Positions 1 to 30,605 of a DNA stretch of 64,000 nt are shown here, in pieces. The stretch is from Pyrocephalus nanus (lineage: Eukaryota > Chordata > Aves > Passeriformes > Tyrannidae). Made by a program: the position numbers and the translations under genes. The stretch covers positions 8,279,001 through 8,343,000 of the forward strand of contig CM076275.1 of assembly GCA_038380795.1 (NCBI GenBank), given 5' to 3'. The number at the start of each line of letters is the position of its first letter. Position 1 is the stretch's first letter. Below the pieces are notes generated by a model, which was given only the letters and a program-made list of their open reading frames with translations, did no database searches and was not told where the DNA came from.

Positions 1-2
1 CC

Positions 3-4400
<4,398 letters not shown>

Positions 4401-4640
4401 GGTGTGGAGGGGCTGACCCTCCCGCCCACGGCCGCTCGCCTCTCCTCACTGTGCCCCCCGCCTCACCTCGGTGGGCTCCCCTCCTCCGCGGGGGGCCCCG
4501 GTGCTCTCCTGCCCCGCGGGGGCCCCCGGGGCTCCCTCCATCCTCCTGCCCCATCCCCGCGGGGTGACCCCGGCCGTCCCGTCCCCCTCTCCGCGGGCAC
4601 GCGGCTACCCCGTGCCGTAGGGAAGGACCGTGCTGGACCC

Positions 4641-4646
4641 AATAAA
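4641..4646 (+). terminator. FAM193B: FAM193B poly(A) signal
   Basis: Canonical AATAAA 241 nt after the FAM193B stop codon, followed by a T-rich stretch. It gives a 3' UTR of about 260 nt and leaves only about 150 bp before the DDX41 promoter. Confidence 0.9.
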
Positions 4647-4807
4647 GAACTTTTTAATTTTTTATTTTATTTAAACACCGCTGTCTGCTGCTTTCTGCCG
4701 CGGCGGGGGGGGGGGGGGAAATGAATAGCGCGTTCTGCGCAAGTTTGGCCGTCGCGGGGTCCCGTCGGGCCGGGTCGCGTCTCCCGCGCTGTGGCGCCTT
4801 TCCTCGC

Positions 4808-4870
4808 GTTGCTAGGCGACGGCGCTGCGCGTGTTGACGTCACTTCCGCGGTCGGTTCCGGGAAGGCGCC
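4808..4870 (+). promoter_or_regulatory. DDX41: DDX41 core promoter: X-box, CRE and ETS motifs
   Basis: TATA-less, CpG-rich promoter immediately before the DDX41 start codon. GTTGCTAGGCGAC (4808-4820) fits the RFX X-box pattern, TGACGTCA (4835-4842) is a full palindromic CRE, and CACTTCCG (4841-4848) is an ETS/GABPA core overlapping it. An RFX site followed by a CRE and an ETS core is typical of constitutively active promoters. Factor binding is inferred from motif match only. Confidence 0.7.
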
Positions 4871-9820
<4,950 letters not shown>

Positions 9821-10522
9821 CCTGGGGAGTGTGCTGCCCCACATTCCCCCCTCAACACAGGTCTGGGCTTCCTTTCAGCCCAGGGGCCTGTTCTGCACTG
9901 CTGTGGCCCCTTTTCCATGCTTTGGCCACTGGGATTGTTGCCAGCCTCAGCCTGATGAAGCTCCTGCCCTGGGAGGAAATGTGTGGAGCTGTGCTGCAAC
10001 AGCGTGTTACATCAGCGGGGACATGTTGGGCAAGCAGGTAGCATGTCTGAGGGCAAGAGGAACCCCAGGTGGGGCAACTTGTCTGTGGCCAGCTGCCTGC
10101 TGCCCCTGCCAGCCCCCTACAGTGGCATCACCAGGGTCTTACATTGCTCCTCTCCAGAGCTCCTCAATTCCTCCATGTCCACCCCTTACCTGGTATTGTC
10201 CATCCTCAGGGGGTGGCTGTTCCTGCATCCCCAGACTTGCTGGGATGCAGCCGGGGCGAGGTGGTGCATGTTGGGCGCTCCCGGAGCCGCTTCCTGTGCT
10301 CTGCCCCCGCGTTCTGCCCCACTGCCCTGCAATGGGGAGGGCGGGCACACGGACACCTCCTGTGGCCCAGCCTCTGCCCCCCATCCCACACCCCGAAAAG
10401 GGGAAGTCGCTGTGAGAAGGAAGTCTGCCCCATGCCCTTCCTTCGGCTGCAGCAGTCACATTTTCTCCGCTGCGGGTAACCCAAGTCCCTTGTCCTCGTG
10501 CTGGCCGGGGTGGACTGGTCCC
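9821..10522 (+). other. DDX41-DOK3 junction: DDX41 3' UTR without its own AATAAA
   Basis: Seven hundred bases between the DDX41 stop and the DOK3 start codon. I see no AATAAA or ATTAAA here and no coding exon. The stretch must hold the start of the DDX41 3' UTR and the DOK3 promoter and 5' UTR. There is no TATA box; an AGAAGGAAGTC ETS-type core near 10415-10425 would suit a haematopoietic promoter but is weak evidence alone. Confidence 0.6.
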
Positions 10523-13500
10523 ATGGAGAGACCGGTGAAGGATGGGATCCTCTATGTGCAGCACTCCAAATTTGGAAAGGTAAAGGGTGGATTTGGGGCT
10601 TTTAGAGGGTTTGCCCTGATCTGATGACGCCAGCCCCCAGGCCCTCGGCAACCTGGGAAAAGGGGGGACTGGAGTCAGATGCCTTGGAAATACTGTGGGG
10701 GGAAAAACTTCCTCTCCCAGGGGGGAGCCCTGGGCCCTGCAGCCCCAGGAGTGGGGTTCTCCCTGCGGCTGAGGAAACTCATCCATGTGGGCACACACTT
10801 GGGCTCACCCCTGTGCAGGGTCCGTCTTCTCGCTTGGTCACCGCGTGAGTCACAGTGGAACAATAAACGTGTATTACTGTGGCCCAGTTCCAGTGTGTGT
10901 GTGTGGGAGCCCCAGGGCAGCACGTGGGATGTGGCCCTGCGCCCAGCCCTCCTTCCACCTGGCCCAGGGGGCCAGCAGCATCCATGGGACACCCTCATGG
11001 CTTGAGCTGCTCCCCTGCACCCTCGGGGCAGGCGCTGAGAGCCACAGCCCTTGGGGAAGGGTACAGGGGATATGGTGGGAGACCCTGGGGTTGGGCCAAC
11101 TGCAGGGAACTGTTGCGTGTTGGTGAAGAAGGTCCTGCTGTCACACTGGCCATGCCGTGGCAGGGTCCTGTGGTGGTCTCAGTGGATGTATGGGGCTGCA
11201 ATCACTCTCTGACCTCCCTGGTGTGCGAGAGCCAAGCCCTGGAAGCTCAGCAGGCAGCCGGCCCTGTGTGCACGGGGCCAGTGCCTTGCCTTGCAGGAGA
11301 CAGGCGGGCTGGGGGCGGTGGGTATTTTGGGTGTTTGGTTGCATCTGGTTCCTGCAGGGTGGAGGCTCTGCTGCACTTTTGAAGCACATGGGGACACGCG
11401 CCCCCGCTATCCCATGACAGGCTGGGAAGGTGCTGGTGCTGCAGAGGCTCCCCTGGGAGGAAGCAGGCTGCTCAGCAGATGTGGGGCTGCCAGCAGGAGC
11501 CCCAGTAGCTCAAAATGGCTTTAATTTGCATCAGGGTCTGTCCTGAGAACAGCTCGAGCTCAGCTGCAGCGGTGGCAGGCCAGCACTTGCAGCGGGGAAC
11601 AAAGAGCAGGACCTGGTGCTCAGGGAGCCAGGAGTGAGCATGACTCACCCAGCAAGCTATGCCAAGCCCGCCTGGGGCAAGGCCCCCCTCGACCCAGCTT
11701 TAGGACTGCCCTGCCCCACAGTCTGGGGGTCTGCACTGTCCCCAGCTCTCCAAACCCTCCTGCAGCACCTGGCGGGTGCAGGCTGGGATGTCCCCTGTAC
11801 CACTCCTGCCACATACGGCTCTTCCCAAGTGCTGCTGGCCCCACATGGAGCGCAGCACTGCCAGGATGCAGCAGGCAGCTCCTTGCTGACCCATTTTTTC
11901 CCTGCCTGTGCCCCTCCCGTTCCTCAGAGGTCCTGGAGGAAGATGCGAGCCCAGCTGTTCGCCGCCAGCCCCTCCGGCGTGGCCCGCATGGAGAAGTTCG
12001 ACGTGCGGGATGACAGCACAGCCCCAGAGAAGACGCCCCCGCAGCGCTGTGCCCGCCGGGTGATCCGCCTCTCAGACTGCGTCTCCGTGGGCCCAGCGGG
12101 CACGGAGAACTGCCCCAAAGCCACCTCTGCCTTCTACCTCACCACCACGGAGAAGAGCTACGTGCTGGCAGCTGAGCAGCGGGATGAGTGGATTGCCCAG
12201 CTCTGCCAGCTGGCCTTCCAGGTACTGTGGGCTCTGGCAGAGCCAGGAGTCCTTGTATTGCTCCTGCTTGGATGAACTGGAGGGCTCGGGGCCGGCAGGG
12301 GGCTTGTGCTCCCTGCTGTCCCAGACCGTGCTCACGTTCCTCTGTTTCAGGGTGCAAAAGAGACAATGCCGAGTAGTGCCATGACCCAGCCCAGCCCCTC
12401 TGTCCCCATGGAGGAGAACTCTCTCTACTCTTCCTGGCAGGACTGTATGTGCAGGGGTGGGGGGTAGGGCTGCCATGGGCTCCAGATCAGTGCTGCAGTG
12501 CTGACCCCTGCCCTGTTCTGCTCCTGCAGTGACGGAATTCCTGGTGCTGGTGGTCCAGACAGATGCGTCCACGCGCTGTGGCCTGCAAGGGCAGTATCTG
12601 CTCTCCGCCCTTCCCCAGAGCCTGACTCTAAAGGACCTGCAGTCCCGCCAGCCCCTGCTTACCTGGCCCTACCCCTTCCTCCGCAAGTTTGGCCAGGATC
12701 AGGTGAGTCCCCTGATCCCTCCTTGGGGCTGCTGGCTCCCCAGGATGGATGCCAGCCCCTCACCCTCCCCTCTGGCCCTGCAGGCTGTTTTCTCCTTTGA
12801 GGCTGGTCGCCGCAGTGACTCCGGCGAGGGCACCTTCACCTTCAGCACCCCGCGGGCCCCTGAGCTCTGCCGGGCTGTGGCTGCTGCCATTGCCTGCCAG
12901 CAACAGGGCAAGGACACCCCAGACCCCAGACTCTTCTGCGTCCCAGAGCCCCAGCTCTCTGCACAGGGCCCTGAACCCCAACCCTGGGGACCTGGGACAG
13001 AGGATCCCCAGCCCAGGCCAGTCCTGGGGGGGTCACAGCCTGCCTCCCATGGCACTGCCAGTCTCCTCCACTTCACCCCGCCAGACCCAGAGGGCTCGTG
13101 CCCCATCGTCTACGCCTCCATCGCACGGGGCCACCAGCCCCTCTTTGTGCCAGGGCAGCCGGGCTCTTGTGAGCCCTGGGCCGCGGGGAAGCCACTCCCT
13201 GAGCATCTCTATGAGAACATCTTCACCGCGGAACCGCTTCCAGTCGGGACACAGGAAGAGGAGGAGGAAGGGCAGTGGGAGCTGGGGTGCCGACAGGCGC
13301 CCGAGGGCCACAGCAGCGAGGGGGGACCCCTCTATGACAACCGGGCCGCCCTGGCACAGCCCACCGGGGCCGCGGGCTGGGGGCGTGGGGGGCAGGAGGC
13401 GCTGCTGGGGCGCTCCAGGCACAAGCCTCATAGCACCCTTCGGGCTAAGCTGGTGCGGCTGCTGAGCCGGGAGAGCGCCGGGGCGCGGGACTGGGCCTGA
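10523..13500 (+). CDS. DOK3: DOK3, Dok-family PH/PTB adaptor
   Basis: Five coding exons at 10523-10579, 11928-12221, 12351-12444, 12530-12702 and 12784-13500 give 444 aa (human 496). Exon 1 starts MERPVKDGILYVQHSKFGK, matching the human start of the PH domain (IKDGILYQQHVKFGK). The PH domain continues in exon 2 (about residues 5-117, with SPSGVARMEKFDVRDD and RRVIRLSDCVSV). The IRS-type PTB domain runs from EENSLYSSWQ through LTEFLVLVVQTD, WPYPFLRKFGQD and AVFSFEAGRRSDSGEG (about residues 135-260). The C-terminal tail keeps tyrosine motifs IVYASI, EHLYENIF and PLYDN. Family knowledge: DOK3 is a membrane-recruited adaptor that restrains immune-receptor signalling through SHIP1 and Grb2 once phosphorylated. 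Intron 1 (1.35 kb) contains a complete-looking poly(A) site. The stop is 22 bp before a poly(A) signal, so the 3' UTR is very short. Confidence 0.95.
10862..10867 (+). terminator. Poly(A) signal in DOK3 intron 1, candidate DDX41 3' end
   Basis: AATAAA at 10862-10867, followed about 25-40 nt later by a GU-rich element (alternating TG at 10893-10906). That is the full arrangement of a strong cleavage site. It is the first canonical signal after the DDX41 stop codon (9820), yet it sits 283 bp inside DOK3 intron 1. It would give DDX41 a 3' UTR of about 1.06 kb overlapping DOK3 exon 1 on the same strand, or would truncate DOK3 transcripts after exon 1. Confidence 0.7.
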
Positions 13501-13521
13501 TGCGGTCGGTGCCGTTCGGTC

Positions 13522-13527
13522 AATAAA
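13522..13527 (+). terminator. DOK3: DOK3 poly(A) signal
   Basis: AATAAA 22 nt after the DOK3 stop codon. Transcripts should end near 13545, about 90 bp before the CCAAT box of the PDLIM7 promoter. Confidence 0.9.
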
Positions 13528-13633
13528 GGCCCTGCCCGGACCCGGCTCCGCCGCTGCTGCGGAGGGGGCAGCTCTCGCCTCTCCGCCAGGGGGCGCCGCC
13601 GTGCCCGCCCCGCCGGCTAGAGGCGCGCGCGCT

Positions 13634-13776
13634 GATTGGCCGAGCCACCCACCGGCCCCGCCCCGTCCCGGTGCTACATAAGGCGGGTCCGGGCCGGGCG
13701 GGGGCGGTGCCCGGGTTCGAGTCCCGTGTCCGCCCGCTCCGTTCGGCTGCGCTCCGCCGAGCCCCCGCTGCCGCGG
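13634..13776 (+). promoter_or_regulatory. PDLIM7: PDLIM7 main promoter and non-coding exon 1
   Basis: A compact promoter: inverted CCAAT box (GATTGG, 13634-13639), GC box CCCCGCCCC (13656-13664) and a TATA-like TACATAAG (13675-13682), so transcription should start near 13705. A short untranslated exon would end at 13776 before donor GTGAGT. The region is a CpG island continuing to about 14400. Confidence 0.7.
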
Positions 13777-14200
13777 GTGAGTGCGGGAGGCCTGGGCACG
13801 GCGGGGAGCTCCGCGCTCTCCGGAGGCGGGATGGGGGCGCCAGGGGTGGAGGACTGGGGCCTGGGTCGGGGCGAAGGCGGGTGGTCGGGGTCGGGCCCGT
13901 GCGGGGCAGAGCCGGCGGCCCCGACCCCCGGGAGGGGCGGTGCTGTGGGATGGGGAGGGGCCGCGTGGCCCCCCGCGGGGCAGGGGGGCTCCCCAGCAGT
14001 AGGAGGGGCTGCCCAGGCTGTGCGCGCTGGGGACCCCCGGTCCGGCCGGGCCCGGTTCGGCCGGGCGGGGTGCGGGGTGTCCGCCCCGTCCCGGCGCCTC
14101 GCTCGGGCTTGCGCGGCTGCCGAGCGCCGGGAATGCCTGACACGCAGCTCTTCCCCCGGCCCTCCCGAGCGGGGAGCGGGCTGGTGTCGTCTTACACGCC

Positions 14201-14370: not shown

Positions 14371-15023
14371 GTGAGGGGTGACAAGAGTCTGGTGCCGGCC
14401 CATCTGCCCGGAGCCTTGGCCGGCTGACAGCTGTCAGGCAGGGGAGCCCTGGGATTCCCTCCCGCCGAAGCCCTGGAGATGGGCTCACTCCCAGGGAGCA
14501 TCTGCTCAGCCGGCTGCTGGAGTGCCAGCCTGGCTACTCTGCCAGGCGCCTCGGGTGGCATCATGCAGCTCCTGCGCTGCTGCTGCTGCTAATTCATCCG
14601 GCAAAAACGCTTCTGGTTCATATCCCTCCATACCTGCTGTTGCTTCTCTGCAGTCTAAACAGCCTTGGCTCTCTGCAGTGTGAGTTCCTGGGGTGCTGCA
14701 AGAGAGAGCACAGCCCAGGTTTGGGAGGAGAACAGAGCCCACAGACACTCCACTGTGGGTGGCAGCAGGGCTGTGCCTGGCTCTCTGGCACTAGTCAGTG
14801 TTAGCCTGGGCCCCTCAGCTCTGACGTCCTGAAGGAGATGCTGATGGATTTGGGGTGCGTCTCTAACCACAGTGTAGGATGGTCAGGGTGGAGTTGCAGC
14901 TGGAAATGTGGCCTGCCTCCTCCTGTCCTACCCTGCCAAGCACTGGGCCCCCTCCTCGGCTGCTCTCCCTGCACTGTTCCCATGTATCCTAATGCCAGGA
15001 TCACACCCTCTTCCCTTGCAGAG

Positions 15024-18000
15024 ATGGGCGACATGGAGTCCTACAAGGTGATGCTGAACGGGCCAGCACCCTGGGGCTTCAGGCTGCAGGGAGGGAAGGA
15101 TTTCAGCATGCCACTCTCCGTCTCCAGGGTAAGAGAAGCCGAAGCTGGTGACACCCATCCTTCCCCCTGCCTCTGTGGGGGGGAGGCTGTGGCGGCAGTG
15201 TCCGGGAATGTGGCGGCTGAGTCGGAGTCCTACAGGGGATGCAGATGAGTTGGGGCCCCGGGAGTGCTGCATCCTGCCCTGCCTGGCTCCACGTAGCCTC
15301 TTTGGTGCCTTATCAGCTGCAGCCCGGCACGGGGGTGTTCCGGGCAGAGAACTGCGGCAGAGATGTGAAATGCTGCACAGCCTCTGCAGAGGGGGGCAGG
15401 GGAGGCCCCTTCCGGAGCATGCCCACCGCAGGGGGAGGGAATCTGCTCTCTGAGATGTGGGACTGCCTTCCTGATCCACATCCCAATGCTGGGATCGGCA
15501 TCCCAGGACCCAGCCAGCGTCCTTCTGCCCTCCCTTCCACTACGCGGCTCCTAACTCCATGCCTGAGCTCGTCCCTGAAATGGGCAGGGAGAGGAGGAAG
15601 TTGCTGCTGCTTCCTGCACAGTGACATGATTCCCTCCACAAAACTATTCCATTTCTCCAGGGAGAGCCATTGTGCCACAGCTGGTTGCCACTGAGGCCTC
15701 AGGTTTGAGCTGTGCCCAGTGCAATGCTCAGCCAGGCCAGGTCTGTCCACGGGCGGGTGCTGGCCACGTCTCTGGCCACGCAATTGCCTTATAAGCCTTG
15801 GAATGTGACTGCAATGCCTGTGCCTCTGGCGCTCGGGCAGCTGGCACGGAGGCTGCTTCTCGAAGGACAGCTTTGCTCGTGGCACCGGACGCTGCGTGGG
15901 GCCCTGTCCCCAGCACGAGCTTGGCACTGTGTGCCTGTCCCAGAGGACACGGATCTCTGCAGCACCCAGGCAGGGAGGATGGCCCCTGAGGGCACTATGT
16001 GAGGCTGGAGTCACCAGCACTGCTACCCCAGGGCCTGCTGATCTCTGCTGAGCATGCAGAGAAGGCTTCAGCGAGTTTATTCTCTAAAAAATGTTTCTCT
16101 TGGCTGCGAGCCAGCGCTTAACAAAGGGTCTGGTCGGATGGAGGAGCCTCCCAAAGCCCGGGGCAGGGGCCTTGTGAAGCAGCACTTGGTGGGGCTTGGG
16201 CAGTGCTGCCATCAGGAGCAGTGAGGGCATTCCCAGGGGATGTAGCCAGCTTTGGGGGGCTCTCTGTTAAGACCAGGCTGCCTGGCAGGGCGATGTGCTC
16301 TGTCTGATGGGAGGGGGTGAGCCTTGCGCTGCTCTGCACCCCAGAGACATTCCCAGCCTCGGAGCTCTTGCCCAGAGCACGCTGCTGCCCTTGGCCACCA
16401 CTTCCCATGAACTTGCCCTGCTAAAGCAGGGTGGAAGGAAGCATCCTGCCCTGGCTTTGAGGGCTGCAATGGAGTCCTGCTCTGTGGGGCTGAGGAGCAT
16501 AGGGGGAAAGCAGCACTGGCATGTGCTCTGGCTCTTGGCTGTATCACTCAGTGTGACACTACTGGGTGAGCTGTCAGGCTGCTGCAGCTCACTGGCCACA
16601 CACAAAAGAGGTGCCACCATGGCCCCCTGCACATGGACCTCCTGTGGCAAGGGGCTCTGCTGAGGTACTGACCCTGGGGCAGACTGTATGCCACAGTTCC
16701 TGCGGCAGAGCCAGGTGGGTGGGGCTCTGTCCTGGGGGTCCCTGGAAGGGGTGGCAGGTGGGCACCTCTCTGGGCGGGGTGACAGAGATGCAGGGAACAA
16801 AGGACTGGCTGGGTGGAGAAGGGAGAAAGGAAACCCTGGGTTTAGGTTAGCAGGCCTGGGTGGGAAGCGGGAGGGCTGGCACTGCTACGGCTCCTGGCTC
16901 AGCTGGCACCTGCCACAGGAGTTTCCTGGCATGCCAGCATGGAGGGGGACGGGAAGTGCTGACCGGGCTGGGTGAGGCTGTGTGACGCAGCCTGACGTGC
17001 TCTCCCCTTCCCGGCTGGCCGTGTGAAAACCTTTCCAAGCTACTGCTCCTGCCTCCAAACCCACACAGCCACCCCGTGCCTTCCCCAGCCCTCCAGGGCA
17101 GCAAGCTGGGGCTTGCAGCGGCATTGCCAGCCGGCACCGCTGCTGCCGAGGGCATCCTCCCGTGCTGGTCAGGAGGAGCAGGCACTGGGCTGGGGGGTGG
17201 CAGCGGGATGCAGGAAGAGCCGATCCACATCCAACCCGTCTATGGGGTTTGGCCTCACATGGAGCGCCAGTGTTGGCGTAGGGAAGGGGAATGTGGCTCT
17301 GGGGTGAGCCAGGCTCTGTGCACGGGCAAGGAGGGGCGAGGACTCAGCGGCAGGGATTTTTCAGCCCTCTGACAGTGCTGGGAATCTGGCTCACTCCTTT
17401 TATGTTCATGTCGAACAGGACTTGAGGAAATACTTGGTCCAGGTCCAAGTGCCTCGAGTTCTTCCATGCTGGAGGAGCAGGAATGGCTGCACCCTGCCCA
17501 CGTCTGTCTGTCTGTCAGTGCCTGGGAGCTGTGTGTGGTGCTTCGGGCCCTGCTCGCCTCTGGCTGTGCATCCCTGGTGGGAGGGGAGGGCAGGACAGCC
17601 TCCACTTCCCAGCACGGGGCTGATGTAGAACAGTGCCATGGAGCCACAGCGGGGGCAAGGCACATCCCTGGCACTGTGGCCAGGAAGGAGAACCCGTGGC
17701 CGTGCTCTTGGCTATCCCGGTGGGGCGATGTCTGGGGGAGCAGCGTGGGTGGGGGCGGTTTTCTCCCTGCCTTGGGAGGGCTCCTGCTCCTCTGTGGGAA
17801 TGAGGTAATGTCTGCGCCTGCTGGGAATGGGACGGGAGCATGGAGCGCAGGCAGCTGGGGGAGTGCCCAAGGGGTGCCTCCCCTGACCCCCCCCTCGCCC
17901 CAGGCGAAGGGCTGGACATGCCTGTGGTTTGCAGTGAGATGTGGGCTGCCCAAAGGGCCCTGACTCACTGTGCTCCCTTCCTGCCCCGGGACCACAGGGA

Positions 18001-21000
18001 TGGCTCTGAGGGGTGGCTGGGCTTCCTGCCGAGGCTGAGCCAGCACCGCCTCTGTGTTTGGCCTCATGAGGATGAGGCTCTGGGGTGCTGGCATAGTCCC
18101 CAGCCATGCCAAAGGGCAGGGGCTGGGCAATGCCCAGGGGTACTGCTTTGCTCGCTGCTGCTGCCGAGAGGAAGAAGCTGCTCTGGCTGGGCTCATGCAC
18201 TGGGAAATGAGGAGTGAGCTGGATGTTCCCACATTCCCCTGGGTCAGGCCTGTGTGGGTATCCTGTGCTGGGCTGGAGAGCCTGAGTCCCAACAGGCCCC
18301 TACCTTCCTAAAGATGAGGACATCCCTCTACTCCTGAGCCAGCACTTGGCTGTTTCAGCTCTCCCTGATCCTATCTGTCTTGCAGCTGACTCCAGGTGGG
18401 AAGGCGGCTCAGGCTGGTGTGGGAGTGGGTGACTGGGTGCTGTACATCGACGGGGAGAGCACCAGTGCCATGACACACATTGAGGCCCAGAACAGGATCC
18501 GTGCCTGTGGGGACAGGCTCTGCCTCACCCTGAGCAGGTAGGAATCGTGGGTCCTGCAAACATGGGTTCCTGGTGTGGCCAAAGCAGAGCCAGGGCTATC
18601 TACCAGCATCTCCATATCCTGCCATCACTGATCCAGCTCAGAGCTGGGCAGCCCCTGGCTGAGTCTGAGGGCTCAGCTTGGCTGGATGAGGCTTAGCCTG
18701 GCTGTGAGCTACAGGGCAGTGCCAGCGGGCCATGGCTCCCCTTGGATGGTTGTTGCATCCCTGGGGTACCAGTGTCCCAGCAGTGCCTGGGCCAGTTCCA
18801 GCACCTGCCTATCTGTCTCCTCTCTTGCAGAGCCCAGAACCAGCTGGGGAAGCCGCAGAAGGTACGTGTCACTCCTGGTGCTGCAGTGGCAGCTCAGCCT
18901 CATCTCAGGGGAAGGGAATCTCTGAGTGTAGATGGATAAATAAACTTTGCTCCTGTGGCTCACAGGCTTTTAGGGGACTGGGGTGCGTTTGGAGGTCTAG
19001 ATAACCCTGCTGGAGTAGCAGCTCTGACCTCTGGCACCGTGGAGGATCGGAGAGAGCTATGTCTGCCCAGGAGGCAGCTTGGTCCAGGCTGTTCCCCTGC
19101 TTGTGCTGGGCTTGGGCAGGGGTACAGAAGGGTCAGTGCAGGGGAGGAGATCGGGCAGGTGCAGCACCGTGTTTGCTGGTGCTGGGGAGTGCCCTGGCAC
19201 AGGGAGGCAGGGCTGAGGCTGGTGACCAGTGGCTCCTGGATGGAAGCTACCTACGCGGGTTCAGCTTTGTGCCACAGGATGGTTGCAATGGGTGTGTGTG
19301 CATGCACCGCCCTGCCATGGGCAGCAGCGTCTGGGGCACCTACTAATCCTCCAACGACCCTCAGGCTGGGTTTGTGACCTGCTGTCACTGGGCTGGCTAC
19401 CCTGTGGAGAGTGGTGCCAGCCTGACAGAGCCCGGTGTCTGAGGTGCACGTGCTCTCCAGCTTTCCTACCTGGCTGCCTGCTGAGCTGCCTGGCCCGGGG
19501 CTGCCCCTTGCATGCTGCTTGACGTGTGAGCCCATGTCTGTGTGTTTTGTCTCGCTCAGGACTCACTCCCCTGCTCTGAACCCCTGAAATATAACTTCGC
19601 TCCCAGCACCGCCCTCAACAAAACAGCTCGGCCCTTCGGGGCTGGCTCGCCTCCGAACCCACGGCCCGGGCTGGTGACGAAACCCGTGACGTACGCGCCC
19701 CTGGCGCCCGCCTGCACCCCCCAGCACAATGGGTATGTTGCTGTCCATCCTGCTCCCTGAGGACTGGGGGGAGCCCGCTGCCCGGCCCTGCTGCGCCTTG
19801 CATGCCAGACACCGTGGGTGGGAGTGGGTGAGAGTGCCCGTGCCGGGGTCCCCGGTGGCTGGTGCTGAGGTGGCACAACAGGACTGTTGCACACGGGGAC
19901 ACACAGCCACACTCGTGCTGATCTCTAGCTCAGGGATGTGTCAGCCTGTGTCCTGCAAGGCATGACACAGCAGCTGTAGCAGGACTCTGGCTGGCATCTG
20001 CAGCAGCAGGGAAACAGTGGCTGCCTGGGGATGTCCTGCTGGTTCCCCGGCTGCCAGGATAGGGTGGGCAGCGTGAAGCCCCCCAGCACTGCACAGCACC
20101 ATCCTCACCCAGCTCTGCTCAGCTGCCTGTGTCTGGCAGCTCCTGGTCCTGAGAGAGCTACTGTAGTGCCCTGGAACTGGGCAGGTGAGTGGGATGTGGC
20201 ACTGGCTGCCCTGGGCACCCAGGCCTGTTCTCGGGGTTGATGGAGCACAGTCTGGTCCATTGGCATCTGCCCCTGTGCCCCAGTGTGCTCCCAGCCCTGG
20301 GCTAGCCGGGTGTGAGTCTCAGGGGTAAGGGGACTAATGTAGGCCATAGGTGAACTCTGGAAACTTCTTGGGTGCTGCAGGTCTAATTTCACCTTCCTTT
20401 TTCTTTCTTTCTCTCCTCCCTTTCTCTTTCCCTCTCCCTACAGGTGCTGAGCCTTGACAAGTCAGTAAGCCTTTTGCCTATTCTCTCTATCTTCCCTGCA
20501 TGCCTATTCCCTGCTATTGCCCTGTTCTCCTGGGCAGGGCCAGCCTGGGGATGGGCAGCACATGCTGCTCTGCCCATGTGGGTGGGTCACTTTTGGCAGC
20601 AAGCTGTCCCCAACCTGAAGGGCAACTGCTGCCTGTCTCTGCCAGTTGCTGGGGCCCTGGAGTGTCCTTGTGTGTGGTCCCTTCCCTGCTCCCCAAGATG
20701 TGGCTCGGCCAGACAAGGGCTGATGGGCTGTGCTAGGCACCCTGCCCAGGGGCAGGTGGCATGCCATGGGCAGTCACTAGGCTCTGGTGCAGCTCCCCTG
20801 ATGGTGGTGTTTTGACCTTGGCTTATTCTTGCTCTGTCCTTTCTCCTTGTGGCCCTTGGGGCCGGTATAATACTGTCAGGAATGGTGGTCAGTCCGAAGT
20901 TGGTCCTTCGTGGGCCAGGTCTTTACTGGGGGGAAGTAGAGGGGTGGGGAGTAAGGCGGCGTGTGGTGTCTTGAGTATTGGTGTGCTGTGGCTCTTTGCC

Positions 21001-24000
21001 AGGGGAGGTGTGGGGCAGTCCTAGGGAAGTGATGCCATGAGATCTGTCAGATTTGACAGATGACTCTGTCACTCACAGGCAGCCCCCTCAGCTGCTGGAG
21101 CCCCCCAGCAGCCCCGTGTGCGACCCTGTGAAGCTGCGGATGTTAGAGGACATTGATGACTCGCAGCCCCACAGCTGGACCTCCCAGTCCCGCTCCTTCC
21201 GCAAACTGGCCCGGCTGGTGGGCGCAGACAGCAGTGAGTTGCTGTGGGGCATTGTGGCACTTGAGTGTTGGTTTTGGCCCCATGTGGCCCCTGTGGGCCA
21301 GCTGAGCCAGTGGGAGCTGCCCGGGGCTGTGTGTGGGCTTGTGGTGGTGCCACTGGTCTGGGGCTGTGCTCTGCCCCATGGCTGGGCAGGGCTGTGCAAT
21401 GAGGCAGGTGGGTGGCTGGAGGAGAGGGTGTTTTCCCTTTCCTTTTCCATTTCTTTTGTCTCTGAGCCTCAGTTGCCGCAGACTGACTCTGTCTCCCCCT
21501 TTCTCTCATGTTGCATTCAGTGGAGGATGGTGAGGATGAGCTTGTTAAAAAGCCCAGGTAAGGGGAGCGTATACAGGGGTGGCAGCAGGAGCCACAAGAT
21601 GCTCAGCACACCTGGCTACTTCATCCTCACAGCTTGCAGTCACTCTGGGGATGCTCTTTGCCCTGTTGCTGTTTCTTCTTTCCTCCTCCTCTATCCTCTC
21701 CCCTCCCCAGAGCCGAGTGTTTGGTGGAGCTGCAGAGCCTGCCCTGCGCTCAACCCACCGTGGGCACTGCCAGTGCTCAGCCACTGCTCTGTCACTTTGG
21801 GAGGGTCCTGCCTGGATACCCACCGGCCAGACAGGATGTCCTGTGCCGGGTAGGACCCTCTGGGCACTGCTGGCACCAGGCTGGGGAGACCAATCTCTGC
21901 CACTGCTATTTAAGCAAACGGTATCTGGAGAAGGCTGGTGGCACTAGCAACACCTTGCTGGGGGTGCTCTGAGGTTCCAGGCATTGCCTGGACCTGGGGC
22001 ACAGTGTGCTATGAGACTGGCGTGCAGTTGCTGGGCAGAGCTGGGTGGGCGTCACCGACTTCTCCTTGTGCTGGAACGTGTTCATGAGGGATGGGCTGAG
22101 CGCTGGTCAAATACTGAGTGTTGTGCTGCTATTTTTTCCAATATCACAGGGATGCCCATGGGTCCAGCTGGGGCACAGTGGAGCAGTGGTGAGTGCGGTG
22201 GTTTGACAAGGGCACCTTTGGGAGCACTACCCTGTGCTGAAGCAGGGTCTGTGCTTGGTGTTGGCTGAGCTCCTGCCCTCTGTCACTCACAGGCAGCCCC
22301 CTCAGCTGCTGGAGCCCCCCAGAAGCCCCGGGTGTGATCCTGGGAAGCTGCGGATGTTAGAGGACGCTGAGGACTGGCAGCCCCGCACCGGGACCTCCCA
22401 GTCCCGCTCCTTCCGCAAACTGGCCCAGCTGACAGGCACAGATGGCAGTGAGTTCCTGCAGGGCCTGGTGCTGGCTGGGGGCAATGAACTGTGTTAGCCA
22501 GAATCTGGCAGAGGCTGTGGGGTCATGTGGCACTAAAGGTTTGGTTTTGGCCCCCTTGAGGGCAGCTGAGCCAGCGGGAGCTGCCCAGGGCTGTGTGTGA
22601 GCTCGTGGTGGTGTCACTGGTCTGGGGCTGTGCTCTGCCCCATGGCCGGGCTATGCAATGGGGTAAGGGGATGGTGGGGGGGGGTCAGTTTTCCTCCTTT
22701 CCCTTCCTGCTGTGCCTGGTCCTTGGTTGCCACAGACTGACTCCATCTTCCCTTTTTTTTCCTGCTGTGTGCAGTGGAGGATGGTGAGGATGAGCTTGTT
22801 AAAAAGCCCAGGTAAGGGAACCGTATGCTGGAGTGGCAGTAGGAGCTACAAAGTGCCTACTCTGGGCTCAGCCCACCTGGTTGCTTCATCCTCACAGCTT
22901 GCAGTCACTCTAGAGAAGCTCTCTGCCCTGTTGTTCTTTCTTCTCTCCTCTCTTTGTCCTCCACCCTCAGGTCCCTCCCTCTTCTCCATGTCCCTGGAGA
23001 TGAGCTGCTGGCAGAGCTGCAGAGCCAGCCCCTTGCTCACCCCACAACAGGCACCGTTGGTGCTCAGCCACTGCTGACCATCACCTTGGGAGGGTCCTGC
23101 CCAGTCACCCACCTGCCAGATGGGGTCCCCAAATGGGGTGTCCCTGTGCTGGGTAGGACCTGCTGGGCACTGCTGGCACAGAGCTGGGGAGGCTGAGATG
23201 CAGCACTGTATGCTGGACACAGTGGGTGGGGGTGGCTGGTGGCACTGATAACACCTTGATTGGGGTGTTGGGAGTTCCTGGGCAGGGACTGGACCTGGGG
23301 TACGATGTTTTGGGGGGCTGTGGAATGGCTGTAAGGCTGGTCAGGAGTGAATGCTGATGGCATTTCCATGAGGCTTGTGTATCCCTGATGCGGTGGGGGC
23401 ATACGGGAAGGACGGGCTAAGCCACGGGTCAACCACTGACTGTTGTGCCACTGTTCTTTCTGATGCCACAGGGATGCCCGTGGGTCCAGCTGGGGTGTGG
23501 GGCAACAGCGGTGAGTGCCAGGGTCTGGCAGAGGTGTTGGCATGTGCCAGGGCACCTTTGGGAGCACTACCCTGTGCTGAAGCAGGGTCTGTGCTTGGTG
23601 TTGGCTGAGCTCCTGCCCTCTGTCACTCACAGGCAGCCCCCTCAGCTGCTGGAGCCCCCCAGCAGCCCCGTGTGCGACCCTGTGAAGCTGCGGATGTTGC
23701 AGGACATTGATGACTCTCAGCCCCACACCTGGACCTCCCAGTCCCGCTCCTTCCGCAAACTGGCCCGGCTGGTGGGCGCAGACAGCAGTGAGTTCCCTTG
23801 TGGCCTGGTGCTGGCTGACCGGCCGGGTGTGCTCAGCTTTGCTGGAGCATTTGGAATCAGATAAAAGCTGTGGTGTGTTGTGGCAGTGGGGCATTGGTTT
23901 TGGCCCCATGTGGGCCCTCTGTGGCAGCTGAGCCAGTGGGAGCTGCCCAGGGCTGTGTGCAGGCTCATGGTGGTGCCACTGGTCTGGTGCCATCCTCTGC

Positions 24001-27000
24001 CTCATGGTCAGGCAGGACTGTGCATTGGGGCAGGGGGGCAGCAGGAGGAGAGGACGCTTTGTTTTCCTTTCCCTTCCCTTTCCTTCCTGCTGTGAGTGGG
24101 CCTCAGTTGCCACAGACTGACTCCATCTCCCCCTTTCTCTCCTGTTGCACTTAGTGGAGGATGGTGAGGAAGAGCTTGATAAAAAGCCCAGGTAAGGGGA
24201 GCATGTGAATTAGTGGCAACAGGATCCACAGGGTGCCCACCTTGGGCTCAGCCCACCTGGCTGCTTCATCCTCTCAGCTTGCAGTCACTCTGGGGATGCT
24301 CTCTGCTCTGTGCAGATTCTTTTTTCCCTCTGGGTCCTCTCCCAGACTCAGGCTGTTTCCAGAGCTGCACAACAGGCAACACCAGTGCTCAGCCACTGCT
24401 CTGACTTTCACCTCAGGAGAGTCCTGCCTGGGGACCCACCTGTCAGATAGGCTGTCCCCAAACAGGGTGTCCCCATGTGAGATGTGCAGGCAGGGCCGTC
24501 TGAGCACTGCTGGCACAGAGCTGGGGAGGCCAAAGTGCAGCACCGTGTGTTGGACACAGTGGGTAGGGGTGGCTGATGGCACTGACAGCACCTTGTGAGG
24601 GGTTGGGAGCTGCTAGGCAGCAACTGGTCTTGGGCGTTGTGTCCTGTGTGGCTGTGGAGCAGCTGCAAGGCTGGTTGGGAGTCACTGCTGCCAGCATTTT
24701 CACATAGCTTGTGCCTCCATGGGACTGAGTGCATGTGGGAGGGACAGACTGAGCCCTGGATCAACCACTGACTATTGTGCTGCTGTTTTTTCTGATGCCA
24801 CAGGGATGACCATGGGTCCAGCTGGGGTATGGTGGAGCAGCGGTGAGTGCCAGGGTCTGGCAGAGGTGTTGGCCTGTGCCAAAGGGCACCTTTGGGAGCA
24901 CTACCCTGTGCTGAAGCAGGGTCTGTGCTTGGTGTTGGCTGAGCTGCTGCCCTCTGTCACTCACAGGCAGCCCCCTCAGCTGCTGGAGCCCCCCAGAAGC
25001 CCCGGGTGTGATCCCGGGAAGCTGCGGATGTTAGAGGACGCTGAGGACTGGCAGCCCCGCACCGGGACCTCCCAGTCCCGCTCCTTCCGCAAACTGGCCC
25101 AGCTGACGGGCACAGATGGCAGTGAGTTCCTGCAGGGCCTGGCACTGGCTGGGGGCGATGGACTGTGTTGGGGTAGCCAGAATCTGGCAGAGGCTGTGGG
25201 GTCACGTGGCACCAGGGCTTTGGTTTTGGCTCCAAACCACCCCTTGAGGGCAGCTGAGCCAGCGGGAGCTGCCCAGGGCTGTGTGTGAGCTCGTGGTGGT
25301 GCCACTGGTCTGGGGCTGTGCTCTGCCCCATGGCCGGGCAGGGCTGTGCAATGGGGTAAGGGGATGGTGGGTGGGGGGGGTCAGTTTTCCTCCTTTTCCT
25401 TTTCCTTGCCCTTTCCCTTCCTGTTGTGCCTGGGCCTTGATTGCAGCAGACTGAATCTGTCTCCCCCTTTCTCTCATGTTGCGCTCAGTGGAGGATGGTG
25501 AGGTTGAGCTTGTTAAAAAGCCCAGGTAAGGGGAGTGTGTGCAGGGGCTGCATGTCCCAGGCAGGTGTCTGGGCACTGCTGGCTCTGAGCTGGGGATGCT
25601 GAGCTGCACCTTAGTTTTTTGGGCATGTGGGTGGTGGAGGAGTCTGATGGCAGTGGGAAACCTGGCTATGCAATGTTGGGAGGTGCTGGGTAGTGCCTGC
25701 ACTTAGGGCACATTGTCCCTTGAGCCTGGTGTGGAGCTCCCAGGTGGATAGACTCACCTGGGTGAGTACCACCAGCTTGTTTGCCGTCACCCCTGCTGCT
25801 TGTGGTGATTCTCAGGAAGCTCTTTGCCCTGTAGTGGTTTCTTGTCTCCCTCTCCATCCTCTCCCAGAACTGACCTGTAGGCAGAGCCACAGAACCCCCC
25901 TTTCCTCACCCCACAACAGACACTGCCAGTGCTCAGCCACTGCTTTGACTCACCTTGGGAGGGTCCTGCCTGGACACATACGCCATACAGGTGTCCTCAA
26001 ATGGTGTCCCTATGCCAGGCAGACCTCTGGGCACTGCTGGCACCCAGCTGAGGAGGCTGAGATGCAGCACTGTGTGCTGGACACAGTGAGTGGGGGTGGC
26101 TGGTGGCACTGACAGCACCTTGATTGGGGTGTTGGGAGGCACTGGGCAGGAACTAGTCTGGGGCATGATGTCCTGTGGGGCCATGGAATGGCTGCAAGGC
26201 TGGTCAGGAGTGAATGCTGTCAACATTTCCATGAGGCTCGTGTATCTCTGAGGCTGTGGGTGTGTACATGAGGGATGGGTTGAGCCATGGGTCAACCACT
26301 GACTGTTGTGCCGCCGTTTTCTCAATGCCACAGGGATGTCCGTGGGTCCAGCTGGGGCATGGTGGAGCAGCGGTGAGTGCCAGGGTCTGGCAGAGGTGTT
26401 GGCCTGTGCCAGGGCACCTCTGGGAGCACTACCCTGTGCTGAAGCAGGGTCTGTGCTTGGTGTTGGCTGAGCTGCTGCCCTCTGTCACTCACAGGCAGCC
26501 CCCTCAGCTGCTGGAGCCCCCCAGAAGCCCCGGGTGTGATCCCGGGAAGCTGCGGATGTTAGAGGACGCTGAGGACTGGCAGCCCCGCACCGGGACCTCC
26601 CAGTCCCGCTCCTTCCGCAAACTGGCCCAGCTGACGGGCACAGATGGCAGTGAGTTCCTGCAGGGCCTGGTGCTGGCTGGGGGCGATGGACTTTGCCTGG
26701 GTTGCTGGAGCCCAACAGGGGCTGTGTTGTGGCACCGTAGTGTTGTTCTTGGCCCCATGTGGTCCCCATGGGTTTCTGAGCCAGCAGGAGCTGCCCGGGG
26801 CTGTGTGTGGGCTCGTGGTGGTGCCGTTGGTCTGGGGCTGTGCTCTGCCCCATGGCTGGGCAGGGCTGTGCCTTGGAGCAGAGGGATGGCAGGTGGGGAG
26901 GTCGGTTTTCCTCCCTTCCCTTTCCCCTTCTGCTGTGCCTGGGCCTTGGTCTCTGCAGACTGACTCTGTTTCCTCCTTTTTCTCCTGCTGCGCTCAGTGG

Positions 27001-29814
27001 AGGATCATGATGAGGTGTTTGTTAGGAAGCCCAGGTAAGGGGAGTGTGTGGCAGCAGAAGCCCTGTGGGGCTGCATGTCCTGGGCAGGACCTGTTGGGCA
27101 TTGTTGCACCTCAGCTGGGAATGCTGAACTGTGCTGTTGTGTCCCAGAAACGGCAGGTTGGGGGTGGCTGATGGCACTGGCAAAATCCTGCTGGGGTGTT
27201 TTGATGTTTGGGCAGCACCTGCACCTGGGGCATGGTGTCCTATGGGCCTGGCATGGGGCAGCTGGGCAGAGCTGGTGGGTGTCACCCGCTTCTCCCTGTG
27301 TGGGGCAGGGAAGGGAGCCAGGGCTGTTCCTTGCTCCGTGAAGCTGGGCAGGAATGGTGCACTGCACCCCATTTTTTTACCTTCACCTGTCTGTGATGCC
27401 TTCTGCCCTGGTGCTGTGGTCCTTGGGTCCCAGCTCTGCCCAGTTTGCTCTGCCACTAATAAAAGCTCCTGGGTTCGTAACCATCACCTTCTTGTGATTG
27501 CCCTGGAGAGGCATAGAGCCACAGGCTCTCCCTCTGTCCCTGTTTCCTCTCTCGAGTGGGCTGTGCCTCTCTGGCCCTGGCTTGCCCTGCTTGTCCCCAA
27601 ATCTGCTGAGTTGTGCCCCAGGGCTTCCTGCATCAAGTTGGGTCCAAGCCCCTCTGCACCCCAGTGTGACTATGAGTGATCACCATGTGTGAGCAGGCAG
27701 CCAGAGTCTGGGTGGTACCCGGGGTCCCTGGTCAATCCAAAGCAGCCCAGATCCCTCCCTCCTGCTGCTCCTCAGACCACCAAAGTGGGTATCAGACACC
27801 CCAGTGGTGCTGTGTCTTGGCAGGACTGATGGTACCTCATCACCAAACCAGCTACCGGCTGGGCACGGGGGCTTGGCCAGGTCCTGCCTGCTTGTTGGGG
27901 TGGGGGGCCCTGCCTGCACCCTCTGGGCAGCAGAGTGGGGCAGGCTGGATTAACTGCGTGTTCTGTAGCCAGGTCTCCGTGTCGGACCCATCTCCAGGAG
28001 CAGCGATGAAGACTGAGTCGGGACTAGGTGAGCAAAACATCTCTGGGCTTTTTAGGAGAGGAGTGGGGCTGCTGGGGGATGCCACTCGCCCAGCCACAGG
28101 TTCTGGGAGAGGGCTGCAGAGGGATCAGGACTGTTGTAGAGACTTGTGTGTGCATGCAGCCCCCAGGACCCCCACTGCCACCCCCGGCCCCACCAGCCGC
28201 CCACCCTGGGCTGTGGACCCGTCGTTCGCCGAGCGCTACGCCCCGGACAAGACGAGCACGGTGGTGAGCAAGCACAGCCAGCCGGCCACGCCGACCCCCA
28301 TGCAGAACCGCAGCTCCATCGTGCAGGCGGCCCAGCAGGCCCCCGAGGGGCCCGGCCGCACCCCCCTCTGCTACAAGTGCAACAAGGTCATCAGGTGAGC
28401 CCTGGCCACCGCCACCCCCTGCCAGCATCCTGGGCCCTGGCGTGGCTGACATGGCTCTGTCCTGCTGCAGGGGGCGGTACCTGGTGGCACTGGGACATTA
28501 TTACCATCCCGAGGAGTTCATCTGCTGCCAGTGCAGGAAGGTGCTGGATGAGGGCGGCTTCTTCGAGGAGAAAGGCTCCATCTTCTGCCCAAAGTGCTAC
28601 GACACACGCTACGCGCCCAGCTGTGCCAAGTGCAAGAAGAAGATCACTGGGGTGAGTGTCCCTCAGCCTCTCCTGCACCTCCTGTCCTTGCTCCCTGCTC
28701 ACCTACGGGTGCCTGGCTCTGTCCCTTCCCACCATGATCCCAACCCATGGGATCCCTTCTCCCTTCCTGCCCTGGGCGGTCCTGCCCCTGACTGACAGTG
28801 TCTCCCCTCCAGGAGGTCATGCATGCGCTGAAGATGACCTGGCACGTGCAGTGCTTCACTTGCAATGCCTGCAAAACTCCCATCCGCAACCGAGCCTTCT
28901 ACATGGAGGAGGGACAGCCCTACTGCGAGAGAGGTAGGACCCGGCGACCCCATGTGTCGCCCCATGTGGCCCTGGTGCACTGTTGGGGCTCAGCAGCTGC
29001 CCACACGGGTGGGGGGATGAGCTGCCCTGGGCCATGGGGAGCTCCTGCAGCCCTGAGCCTCTATCCCAGTCCTCCCGGTGGTGCCATTGCTCCTGTGTTG
29101 CCATGGTGATGAGGGAGGATGTACATCAAAGTGAGTGCTGCACCCTGGGAGATGAGGTTTGCCTCCTCCCTGCAGCCCTGTGGTGGCCGGGCCACCTGCC
29201 CGACACAGGCACTTTACCTGGGTGTCTGGGGCATCGTCCCCTCAGGACTGGCAGCAGGTTGGCCCCAGGCTGTGCCTGTGGGATCCTGGCTGAGGTGCTG
29301 CCCTGCTCCCCCAAGATGAGGGGCTGTGGTGCAGAGAAACGCTGACCTGGGCTCTACCTCTCCACACAGACTATGAGAAGATGTTTGGCACCAAGTGCCG
29401 TGGCTGTGACTTCAAGATCGATGCTGGGGACCGGTTCCTGGAGGCGCTGGGGTTCAGCTGGCACGACACTTGCTTCGTCTGTGCGGTAAGACTTGTGCCT
29501 GTGTCTCTCCCCGACAGTCACGCCCTGCGTGGGGTACACCAGCAGCACAGGGACCCTGTTGCCACAAGGTTTTCCCTACTTGACTCTATGCTGGGGGCTT
29601 GAGAATTGGCTCTGAGAGCCTTTTGGTCCCTGCTACCTGTGTGACACCAGTGCTGGGCTTTGGGGGTGGGGGAGACCTGGAGGCTGACTCAGTCCCCTGA
29701 CCTGACTACCTGTACTCTCCTCCCCAGATCTGCCAGACCAACCTGGAAGGGAAGACGTTCTACTCCAAGAAGGACAAGCCGCTCTGCAAGAGCCATGCTT
29801 TCTCCCATGTGTGA
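15024..29814 (+). CDS. PDLIM7: PDLIM7 (Enigma/LMP-1), PDZ-LIM scaffold with an expanded middle
   Basis: Invariant coding exons: 15024-15128, 18386-18537, 18831-18861, 19560-19732, then the repeat array, then 27969-28027, 28160-28394, 28471-28651, 28813-28933, 29370-29485, 29728-29814. The PDZ domain begins [20 protein letters not shown]; a ZM motif ([11 protein letters not shown]) follows; three LIM domains are seen as CYKC...CCQC, CAKC...CNAC and CRGC...CAIC, ending CKSHAFSHV as in human. Between ZM and LIM lie five A-B exon pairs and four candidate C exons, all phase-compatible. The protein is 419 aa with no unit, 483 with one (human 457), 739 with five, and 791 with the C exons. Family knowledge: Enigma binds actin-associated tropomyosin and alpha-actinin through PDZ, and kinases or receptors through LIM. 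Two in-frame ATGs exist (15024 and 15033); the second aligns with the human start, but the first is in equally good context. Confidence 0.95.
15129..18385 (+). other. PDLIM7 intron 2, nothing coding seen
   Basis: The largest PDLIM7 intron (3.26 kb) separates the two PDZ exons. I see no exon with conserved family sequence, no recognisable transposon and no RNA gene. Open frames here are short and GC-driven. Confidence 0.6.
20400..20464 (+). other. PDLIM7: Long pyrimidine tract with candidate 21-nt poison microexon
   Basis: In PDLIM7 intron 5, a pyrimidine-only run of about 40 nt ends in CTACAG (acceptor at 20443). It is followed by 21 nt (20444-20464) and a donor-like GTAAGC. Spliced after exon 5 (which ends AATGG), the reading would be AAT GGG TGC TGA, a stop. 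It could give a PDZ-plus-ZM short form or trigger decay. The tract is real; exon status is speculative. Confidence 0.3.
21079..21557 (+). repeat. PDLIM7: PDLIM7 unit 1: exons A1 (21079-21233) and B1 (21521-21557)
   Basis: Class I unit. A1 encodes [20 protein letters not shown], then [20 protein letters not shown] and [12 protein letters not shown]1 encodes [12 protein letters not shown]. Its left flank (GATCTGTCAGATTTGACAGA) differs from that of all other units, so it probably keeps the original intron boundary. All splice sites are canonical. Confidence 0.9.
22150..22188 (+). other. PDLIM7: Candidate exon C1 between units 1 and 2
   Basis: 39 nt between a T-rich tract ending TATCACAG and donor GTGAGT. 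Read in the phase left by exon B it is open: [14 protein letters not shown], joining in frame to A2 (QPPQLL). The same structure recurs at three other inter-unit positions. Confidence 0.65.
22293..22811 (+). repeat. PDLIM7: PDLIM7 unit 2: exons A2 (22293-22447) and B2 (22775-22811)
   Basis: Class II unit, closest to human: [20 protein letters not shown] then [12 protein letters not shown]2 encodes [12 protein letters not shown], identical to B1. A2 differs from A4 and A5 at only two synonymous sites (CCT/CCC and ACA/ACG). Confidence 0.9.
23472..23510 (+). other. PDLIM7: Candidate exon C2 between units 2 and 3
   Basis: 39 nt after TCTGATGCCACAG and before GTGAGT. Open in phase: [14 protein letters not shown]. 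Compared with the other copies, GVGQQ replaces G(T/M)VEQ, but the length and both splice signals are kept. Confidence 0.65.
23633..24191 (+). repeat. PDLIM7: PDLIM7 unit 3: exons A3 (23633-23787) and B3 (24155-24191)
   Basis: Class I unit: [20 protein letters not shown] then [11 protein letters not shown]. It is distinguished from A1 by Glu to Gln and Ser to Thr changes. B3 encodes [12 protein letters not shown]. Its B acceptor is TTAG rather than CAG. Confidence 0.9.
24804..24842 (+). other. PDLIM7: Candidate exon C3 between units 3 and 4
   Basis: 39 nt after TTTTTTCTGATGCCACAG and before GTGAGT. Open in phase: [14 protein letters not shown]. Confidence 0.65.
24967..25525 (+). repeat. PDLIM7: PDLIM7 unit 4: exons A4 (24967-25121) and B4 (25489-25525)
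   Basis: Class II unit. The 155 nt of A4 are identical to A5 at every position I compared, although the introns on both sides differ. B4 encodes [12 protein letters not shown]. Confidence 0.9.
26334..26372 (+). other. PDLIM7: Candidate exon C4 between units 4 and 5
   Basis: 39 nt after GTTTTCTCAATGCCACAG and before GTGAGT. Open in phase: [14 protein letters not shown]. Confidence 0.65.
26495..27034 (+). repeat. PDLIM7: PDLIM7 unit 5: exons A5 (26495-26649) and B5 (26998-27034)
   Basis: Class II unit with A identical to A4 but the most diverged [14 protein letters not shown]5 ends CCCAG; spliced to 27969 it gives KP-SQVSVSD, matching human KK-SSQVPRTE in position. No C-like element follows this last unit. 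Confidence 0.9.
27458..27463 (+). terminator. PDLIM7: Intronic poly(A) signal after the PDLIM7 array
   Basis: AATAAA (within CTAATAAAAG) 424 bp after exon B5 and 506 bp before the next constitutive exon. Reading past any B exon gives CCC AGG TAA, an immediate stop, so a transcript ending here would encode a PDZ-plus-repeat protein without LIM domains. Usage is unproven. Confidence 0.45.
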
Positions 29815-30605
29815 GGGGTGGAAGTTCAGCTGTGCCCACGCGTGCCCCTGGCCCTGCATGCTCCTCTTCCCCCATCCTGATGCCTCCAGGGAGCCAGGCT
29901 GGGCCCTTGGCCCTTCCCCTTGCTCCTGCCGCTTTCCTGGCAGCTCCTGGCCTGAATTCAGCTGGAGACAGTGCTGGGTGCAGAGCCCTTATAGCTGGGT
30001 GGCTTCTTCTGTGCTTCCTGACTGGCCCTAGGAGCCCTGGGAAGGGGACGCTGCATGGATCTCCTGCCCCTGAACCACGCAGCATAGTGGGCACAGCTGT
30101 GCCGAGGCTGGAATCAGGGATGCTCTGGCACAGCCAGGCTGCTCCCTTCCTGCCTGGCAGCTCAGTGCTGGGGCAGGGATGTTCCTATCACATCCCTGAA
30201 TGGGTGAGGACCAGGCCCCTGCCACACTCTTCCTCACCTTCCCTGCTGTGTGCTTAGTACTTGGGGCTGGAAACCCAGCCCTGCTCCCCTGCCCACAGCA
30301 ACCCCCCAGTCACCCCACAAACTGTTGCAGTGGCTTCCTGCCCTGGCTGCATTCCAATGAGAGTCTGTGCCTTGCCAGCTCACTGCTCCCCTGAAGCTGG
30401 CAGCACCCCCAGCCTGGTGTGCCCCAGCCCTGAGCTGGCAGCGTGTGCTGATGGCCAGCTGGCCGTCTGCTCCCGCAAGGCTTGGGCACAGCTTCCTACC
30501 AAAGAGTGCTCTGCCACCACCGTCCTGGGCCCATCGATGCCTCCACCCAACCCACACCCTCCAGTCAGGCTGCACTGATGTAGCCACAGTGCTTTTAGTG
30601 CCTTT

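Follow-up and report, generated by a model that had tools for sequence, protein, structure and literature searches.

Head-to-tail exon copies with compatible phases occur in Dscam, in the PEVK region of titin and in nebulin. A similar array lies in the gene PDLIM7 (Enigma) of Pyrocephalus nanus (Tyrannidae), within a 64,000-nucleotide (nt) stretch of the forward strand of contig CM076275.1 (assembly GCA_038380795.1, positions 8,279,001 to 8,343,000), hereafter the window. In contrast to those three systems, the copied element is a three-exon cassette, several units enter one protein, and the copy number differs between species and possibly within the chicken. The PDLIM7 of mammals has the same order of PDZ domain, ZM-type segment, A-B unit with the QSRSFR motif and three LIM domains, but one unit against five here (23 of 23 mammalian proteins among the matches listed, 20 from a list of short proteins and three long forms). 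This agrees with the first-pass annotation, a reading of the letters without database searches, which had set the array against a single unit in human PDLIM7; we likewise take the human protein to have one linker unit. Elsewhere in the PDZ-LIM family, Zasp52 and ZASP isoforms offer a likeness in their tissue-specific linker length, obtained through splicing, with long disordered regions rather than tandem copies of one cassette (accessible text of PMC9751615). The variable segment of avian fast troponin T, reported from adult pectoral muscle of birds and from Galliformes and Craciformes, is likewise bird-lineage-specific, alternatively spliced and part of a muscle filament protein; unlike the PDLIM7 array, it is a Glu-rich, metal-binding N-terminal segment with no PDZ-LIM link in the accessible text (PMC8559874, PMC4012202). 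An array of this kind, together with the window's 17-nt exon, also occurs in annotated avian PDLIM7 isoforms (e.g., P0085), with unit number and order varying by lineage. No description of the array was found in the open-access literature, a search to which most subscription journals were external.

Five A exons (155 nt) and five B exons (37 nt) are arranged in tandem on the + strand across 21079-27034, downstream of the ZM exon and ahead of those for the LIM domains. The first-pass annotation had placed five A-B copies in this interval, which runs exactly from the start of A1 to the end of B5. Every A and B exon is open, with an AG acceptor and a GT donor, again as claimed. A1 (21079-21233) runs from phase 2 to 1 and B1 (21521-21557) from phase 1 to 2; the remaining pairs are A2 (22293-22447) and B2 (22775-22811), A3 (23633-23787) and B3 (24155-24191), A4 (24967-25121) and B4 (25489-25525), and A5 (26495-26649) and B5 (26998-27034). 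A1 and A3 form type I, and A2, A4 and A5 type II, with A4 and A5 identical over all 155 nt. B5 is of the terminal type, with the VFVRKP-like end typical of the last unit in neognath arrays. The A-B pair was dropped as the whole unit after a third exon, C (39 nt, phase 2 to 2), was found ahead of A2-A5: C2 (22150-22188, with flanks at 22060-22292), C3 (23472-23510, open and with GT/AG sites), C4 (24804-24842) and C5 (26334-26372), all on the + strand. The five-fold A-B array described earlier thus stands, while the unit itself comprises three exons, and both C and the 17-nt exon had been missed. The full unit, C-A-B, encodes 77 amino acids (aa); unit 1 is without C. In a search of the window (expect value, E, up to 1e-3), C with its flanks was found ahead of A2-A5 only, and no homologue of the C flanks was detected ahead of A1 or beyond B5.

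The copies stand head to tail and are homologous in exons and introns alike, which makes them a tandem exon duplication array, and its anatomy is near certain. Chance is excluded because the A exons are mutually 86.5-100% identical and the introns 62-99%. Assembly error, or the collapse of paralogues into one locus, would be a barely credible source of the copies. One chicken contig contains a repeated three-unit block that could be a local duplication error; in the window, an artefact is refuted by copies that differ in spacing (1214, 1340, 1334, and 1528 nt) and in their diverged introns, and by a 30-nt pattern spanning the A acceptor that has exactly five genomic sites, all of them these A exons, on an 18.6-megabase contig. 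Five units also occur in proteins of three other species, all manakins. Tandem Repeats Finder, with a period limit of 500, did not detect the array; a separate repeat search did.

The units are frame-neutral, as had been proposed. All 162 whole-unit combinations keep the reading frame after the ZM exon (e4, 19560-19732), as do all 162 that follow the 17-nt exon; the three broken forms tested after e4 lose it (two A exons joined, A with no B, B with no A). The predicted protein after e4 ranges from 419 aa with no unit to 791 aa with five units, all with C. This span of 372 residues, C exons included, bears out the expected linker variation of over 300 residues. C-type segments are annotated in bird isoforms: they occupy 443 of the 595 inter-unit gaps in the proteins compared, with 37 direct B-to-A joins and 115 gaps of neither pattern, and C is thus more than an idle open frame. 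All nine manakin proteins examined that keep unit 3 join B2 to A3, skipping C3, and give no support to its use in the window; the songbirds Melospiza and Chloebia use a C at the position matching C3. Open frames had also suggested that the C-A intron is read through as coding sequence; this was rejected, as the frame from C meets TGA at the donor.

The array is already in public annotation, and many neognath birds have annotated arrays of a similar kind with 3-9 units. The protein lists comprise the best 120 matches each, and their counts are among the matches listed rather than censuses. All 120 best matches are bird proteins with 3-7 units under 44 species labels, two of which lump close taxa (3 units, n = 5; 4, n = 37; 5, n = 59; 6, n = 18; 7, n = 1), and among 34 further proteins, 31 have 4-9 units and three are the mammalian long forms with one unit. 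A further list, restricted to proteins of about 152-485 residues and thus showing low-unit forms, added 119 new rows: 20 mammalian, six squamate and three turtle proteins with one unit each, four palaeognath proteins (ostrich with 1 unit, emu with 1 and 0, rhea with 0), and 86 neognath or unnamed rows with no unit (n = 46) or one (n = 40). The suggestion that the array could be missing from bird annotations is thus not supported in general: the 120 best matches are RefSeq-type entries that contain it. The suggestion does hold for records named "PDLI7 protein, partial", which have no unit (23 of 23 listed). Annotated isoforms have 0, 1, 4, or 5 units in manakins, including forms lacking whole units, and 0, 1, 4, 5, 6, 7, or 9 in chicken. 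A mutually exclusive exon cluster, with one copy per transcript, was discarded because annotated proteins contain 3-9 units in succession. Three bird isoforms (P0006, P0007, P0091) include apparent translated intron, and database isoform counts are inflated as a result.

Dating by alignment of the unit across sauropsids, as proposed in the first-pass annotation, was carried out as a tree of 81 units over 63 columns, rooted at the midpoint and with many forks left open. All 75 neognath units split from the six outgroup units (ostrich, emu, turtle, lizard, and two from mammals) with support of 100/98, and in ostrich and emu the units still show FRIL and NKSS, which are features of units from outside the birds. 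By this separation, the expansion (or, as a minimum, the ancestor of the copies now present) is younger than the palaeognath split, which suggests that a single ancestral A-B unit was very probably amplified after neognaths and palaeognaths diverged, probably in the neognath stem. As a detection control, a turtle protein with five or six units would score 1239-1315 bits, above the 1091-bit end of the list that gave the 34 further proteins; a turtle protein with four units, at 1053 bits, would stay unlisted.

The internal units appear to have evolved in concert. The C-A introns are 93-99% identical among units 2-5 and the C exons beside them 77-92%, compared with 86.5-100% for the A exons, 73-91% for the A-B introns and 62-80% for the B-C introns; in sliding windows, a near-identical tract begins at the C donor and extends into A. 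The pattern is most simply read as gene conversion; a conserved splicing or control element in the C-A intron is a possible alternative. In Columba, A2-A6 are identical in protein. Nonsynonymous divergence (dN) is 0.141-0.148 and synonymous divergence (dS) 0.105-0.154 between types I and II, with a dN of 0-0.017 within types. The order I-II-I-II-II is common to the window, Chiroxiphia, Chloebia and Corvus, and hence to suboscines and oscines; Melospiza has one extra II. The VF-type B closes 133 of the 151 proteins with at least three units, some of which apparently are without the true last unit, vs. 86 of 595 internal B segments. The first and last units most likely keep their identity, and the internal units are most likely exchanged through gene conversion and unequal crossing-over, with the copy number still changing as a result. 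In a genome search with the 77-aa unit, the matches were the five A exons, a single C piece, an exon on C6 (L011) and, weakly (E 0.073), a site on C10. The exon on C6, 68% identical to the unit (DASKKRLIEDTEDWHPRTGTTQSRSFRILAQITGTD), occurs once, so that among exons within reach of this search the expansion seems confined to PDLIM7. We take the C6 exon to be a putative PDLIM5- or LDB3-type paralogue. As a separate observation, this single exon carries an ancestral-looking core, SRSFRILAQITGTD.

Two entries to the array are available, which may act as alternative starts: the ZM exon, and an exon of 17 nt (20444-20460, + strand) that encodes VLSLDK and substitutes for the ZM exon by linking e3 straight to a unit. 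The same peptide is annotated in manakin isoforms and appears as VQSLDK in chicken records; the exon is a putative counterpart of the 17-bp insertion of human LMP-3. In the window, e4 joined to the 17-nt exon, or to its 21-nt form (20444-20464), reads NGC and then stops, so that in this species the frame itself would make the two entries exclusive. The stop is not universal, because the corresponding frame stays open in chicken, emu and mammalian proteins (GCRALTSQ, GCRALT, GCRPLTSQ). If the exon were included after e4, the product here would be short, with PDZ and ZM parts but no LIM domain, and could be compared with the "blocking" isoforms that the accessible literature describes for fly Zasp. 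The entries could also mark an either/or switch, in which the 17-nt exon with the array forms one functional class and ZM without units the other, the array replacing the function of ZM. The stop in the window fits such a switch, as do the five non-X-numbered, deposited or UniProt chicken records (isoforms 1, 2 and 3, Enigma protein beta, and the UniProt entry), which without exception have ZM and no unit, or the 17-nt exon and one or six units. Of 273 proteins, 90 contain the 17-nt peptide but not ZM, and none of these is without a unit; however, 119 of the 166 with ZM and without the 17-nt peptide also have units, mammals, reptiles and many predicted bird isoforms included, and two proteins have both (15 have neither). 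Furthermore, six of 36 chicken rows continue after ZM into the related exon in another frame (GCRAL), with 4-6 units. The switch is improbable as a general account, and a ZM-or-array rule is suggestive for chicken only.

The A-B unit encodes the core QSRSFRxLAxLTGT. The pattern QSR[ST]F..L is present in 216 of 225 distinct A peptides and QSR[ST]FR in 189 of 225, where R at +2 makes the site a kinase-type S/T-x-R. The core aligns to positions 58-86 of the 93-position DUF4749 profile of Pfam, which exceeds its cut-off in four of the six proteins tested; the core lies in the C-terminal part of DUF4749 and is probably the orphan ALP motif. In a structure model of a one-unit protein (P0187), a helix is predicted with low confidence at 140-149, exactly on a ten-residue stretch of the unit. 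Most of the ALP motif is reported to be present in Pdlim7 (PMC3305314), and a putative protein kinase C site lies in it (PMC1781342), both in the accessible text. In Table 1 of PMC9751615, the Enigma-region rows include protein kinase C as a LIM partner identified by pull-down, and the accessible text of this 2022 review considers the ALP motif too little known to discuss. Linkers of the PDLIM family are described as intrinsically disordered, with predicted contacts to alpha-actinin and to the LIM domains (accessible text of PMC10754285). Each unit might therefore present one short ALP-motif helix in a disordered linker, as a docking and kinase-target site, and the unit count might determine the valency and reach of the scaffold, together with its number of phosphorylation sites; its LIM domains would bind actin-associated partners and protein kinase C. 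Taken alone, this valency step is tentative and somewhat doubtful.

The units could instead supply flexible, disordered length between the PDZ and LIM ends, a rheostat to which the motif adds little. The linker is of very low confidence and almost structureless in both structure models, in line with the disorder described for PDLIM linkers, and unit number differs across species and between chicken contigs. However, conservation is uneven: the core positions Q, S, R, F, L, and G are 100% conserved in 75 aligned neognath units, and at many flanking positions the commonest residue reaches 39-70%. A pure spacer would not need this unevenness, part of which inter-unit exchange could explain. We consider a pure spacer unlikely. 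A mostly neutral array, with working isoforms of 0 or 1 unit and additional frame-neutral units tolerated and usually skipped, would agree with four of the five chicken records mentioned above (P0227 and P0223 with no unit, P0214 and P0215 with one) and with the zero-unit form of the UniProt entry. The fifth record, the non-X-numbered 808-aa isoform 2 (P0085), has six units, and all A and B exons in the window are open, with the core retained in nearly all A peptides as counted above and the unit order shared by suboscine and oscine passerines. Such neutrality, too, appears rather unlikely.

We favor a reading in which amplification in neognaths and exchange among internal units are followed by alternative splicing that may skip or retain whole units, and thereby by changes in the valency of ALP-motif sites. 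As a complete chain, it stands about evenly between right and wrong. Several points weigh against it. Most of the isoforms compared are gene predictions, including those with apparent intron translation. Between types I and II, dN is high for the accompanying dS, a pattern hard to read as simple purifying selection on all units, and exchange can keep units alike without selection. In two queries derived from the window, DUF4749 scores 22.8 and 18.6 bits, below the cut-off of 28.7. The helix of P0187 is of low confidence (block mean of the predicted local distance difference test, pLDDT, 36), and a five-unit model (726 residues), poor overall at a mean pLDDT of 37.3, has an array without helix. 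With respect to dating, an ostrich protein with six units and without the ZM exon would score 1079 bits, just below the end of the list at 1091, which makes the absence of palaeognaths from this list weak evidence; a separate palaeognath array would thus be compatible with these lists. No crocodilian protein was among the matches listed.

Copy number may vary within one species. Predicted chicken proteins reach nine units on a contig of 17,905,061 bases, with units 3-5 repeated as 6-8, and six units on a contig of 17,936,364 bases; the two contigs presumably represent two assemblies. Comparison of P0121-P0129 with P0008, P0085 and P0089 shows that the three-unit block is repeated exactly in protein. 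The difference of 6 vs. 9 units could be a polymorphism or an assembly error. A bolder extension of the favored reading is that neognath PDLIM7 acts as a "digital scaffold", in which splicing and a changing copy number would set the count of ALP-motif helices next to the LIM domains, every helix bearing a kinase-type serine, and the frame-locked choice between ZM and the 17-nt exon would determine whether ZM or the array is the working part; copy number, maybe polymorphic in chicken, could then track muscle type or flight demand. This extension is speculative and, on present comparisons, improbable. The array nevertheless amounts to a natural copy-number series of the ALP motif within a single gene, spread over many lineages of birds and perhaps present in a single domestic species, and therefore offers a direct way to test the binding partners of this motif and the importance of its valency in the cytoskeleton or Z-disc. 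For Tbx5 localization in heart and limb, chicken Pdlim7 (LMP4) serves as a model in the accessible literature. Since the UniProt entry has no unit, chicken studies based solely on this form may have missed the array forms.

The remainder of the gene model is consistent with PDLIM7, as first annotated. The window, placed at C17:8279001-8343000 in a genome of 1.07 Gb and 153 contigs, carries the gene on its + strand as e1-e4, the array and e5-e10. The upstream coding exons e1 (15024-15128), e2 (18386-18537) and e3 (18831-18861) encode PDZ parts, and e4 provides the ZM-type segment. Downstream of the array, e5 (27969-28027), e6 (28160-28394), e7 (28471-28651), e8 (28813-28933), e9 (29370-29485) and e10 (29728-29814), the last containing the stop, encode three LIM domains. 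The N-terminal domain matches Pfam PDZ at 54.1 bits (cut-off 23.2), and its best matches among solved structures are PDLIM7 PDZ domains; the C-terminal region matches LIM in three stretches (140.1 bits), and a DUF4749 piece is also present. The named matches listed are PDLIM7 (PDLI7, Enigma), the rest being hypothetical or unnamed, so that orthology to PDLIM7 over PDLIM5 or LDB3 is supported, as judged by these names. A spliced model of 739 aa, with the 17-nt entry and every unit, is closest among the listed proteins to those of manakins, aligned over the full 739 residues: Pseudopipra (95.7% identity), Manacus (95.4%) and Chiroxiphia (95.0%). An AATAAA at 27458, in the intron between B5 and e5, is one of two on the + strand within 15000-30300, and could mark a LIM-less 3′ end after the array. 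The neighboring open frames (window positions 1-14000 and 38000-61000) resemble DDX41, DOK3, DBN1, PRR7 and GRK6, presumably in the same order as in human 5q35.

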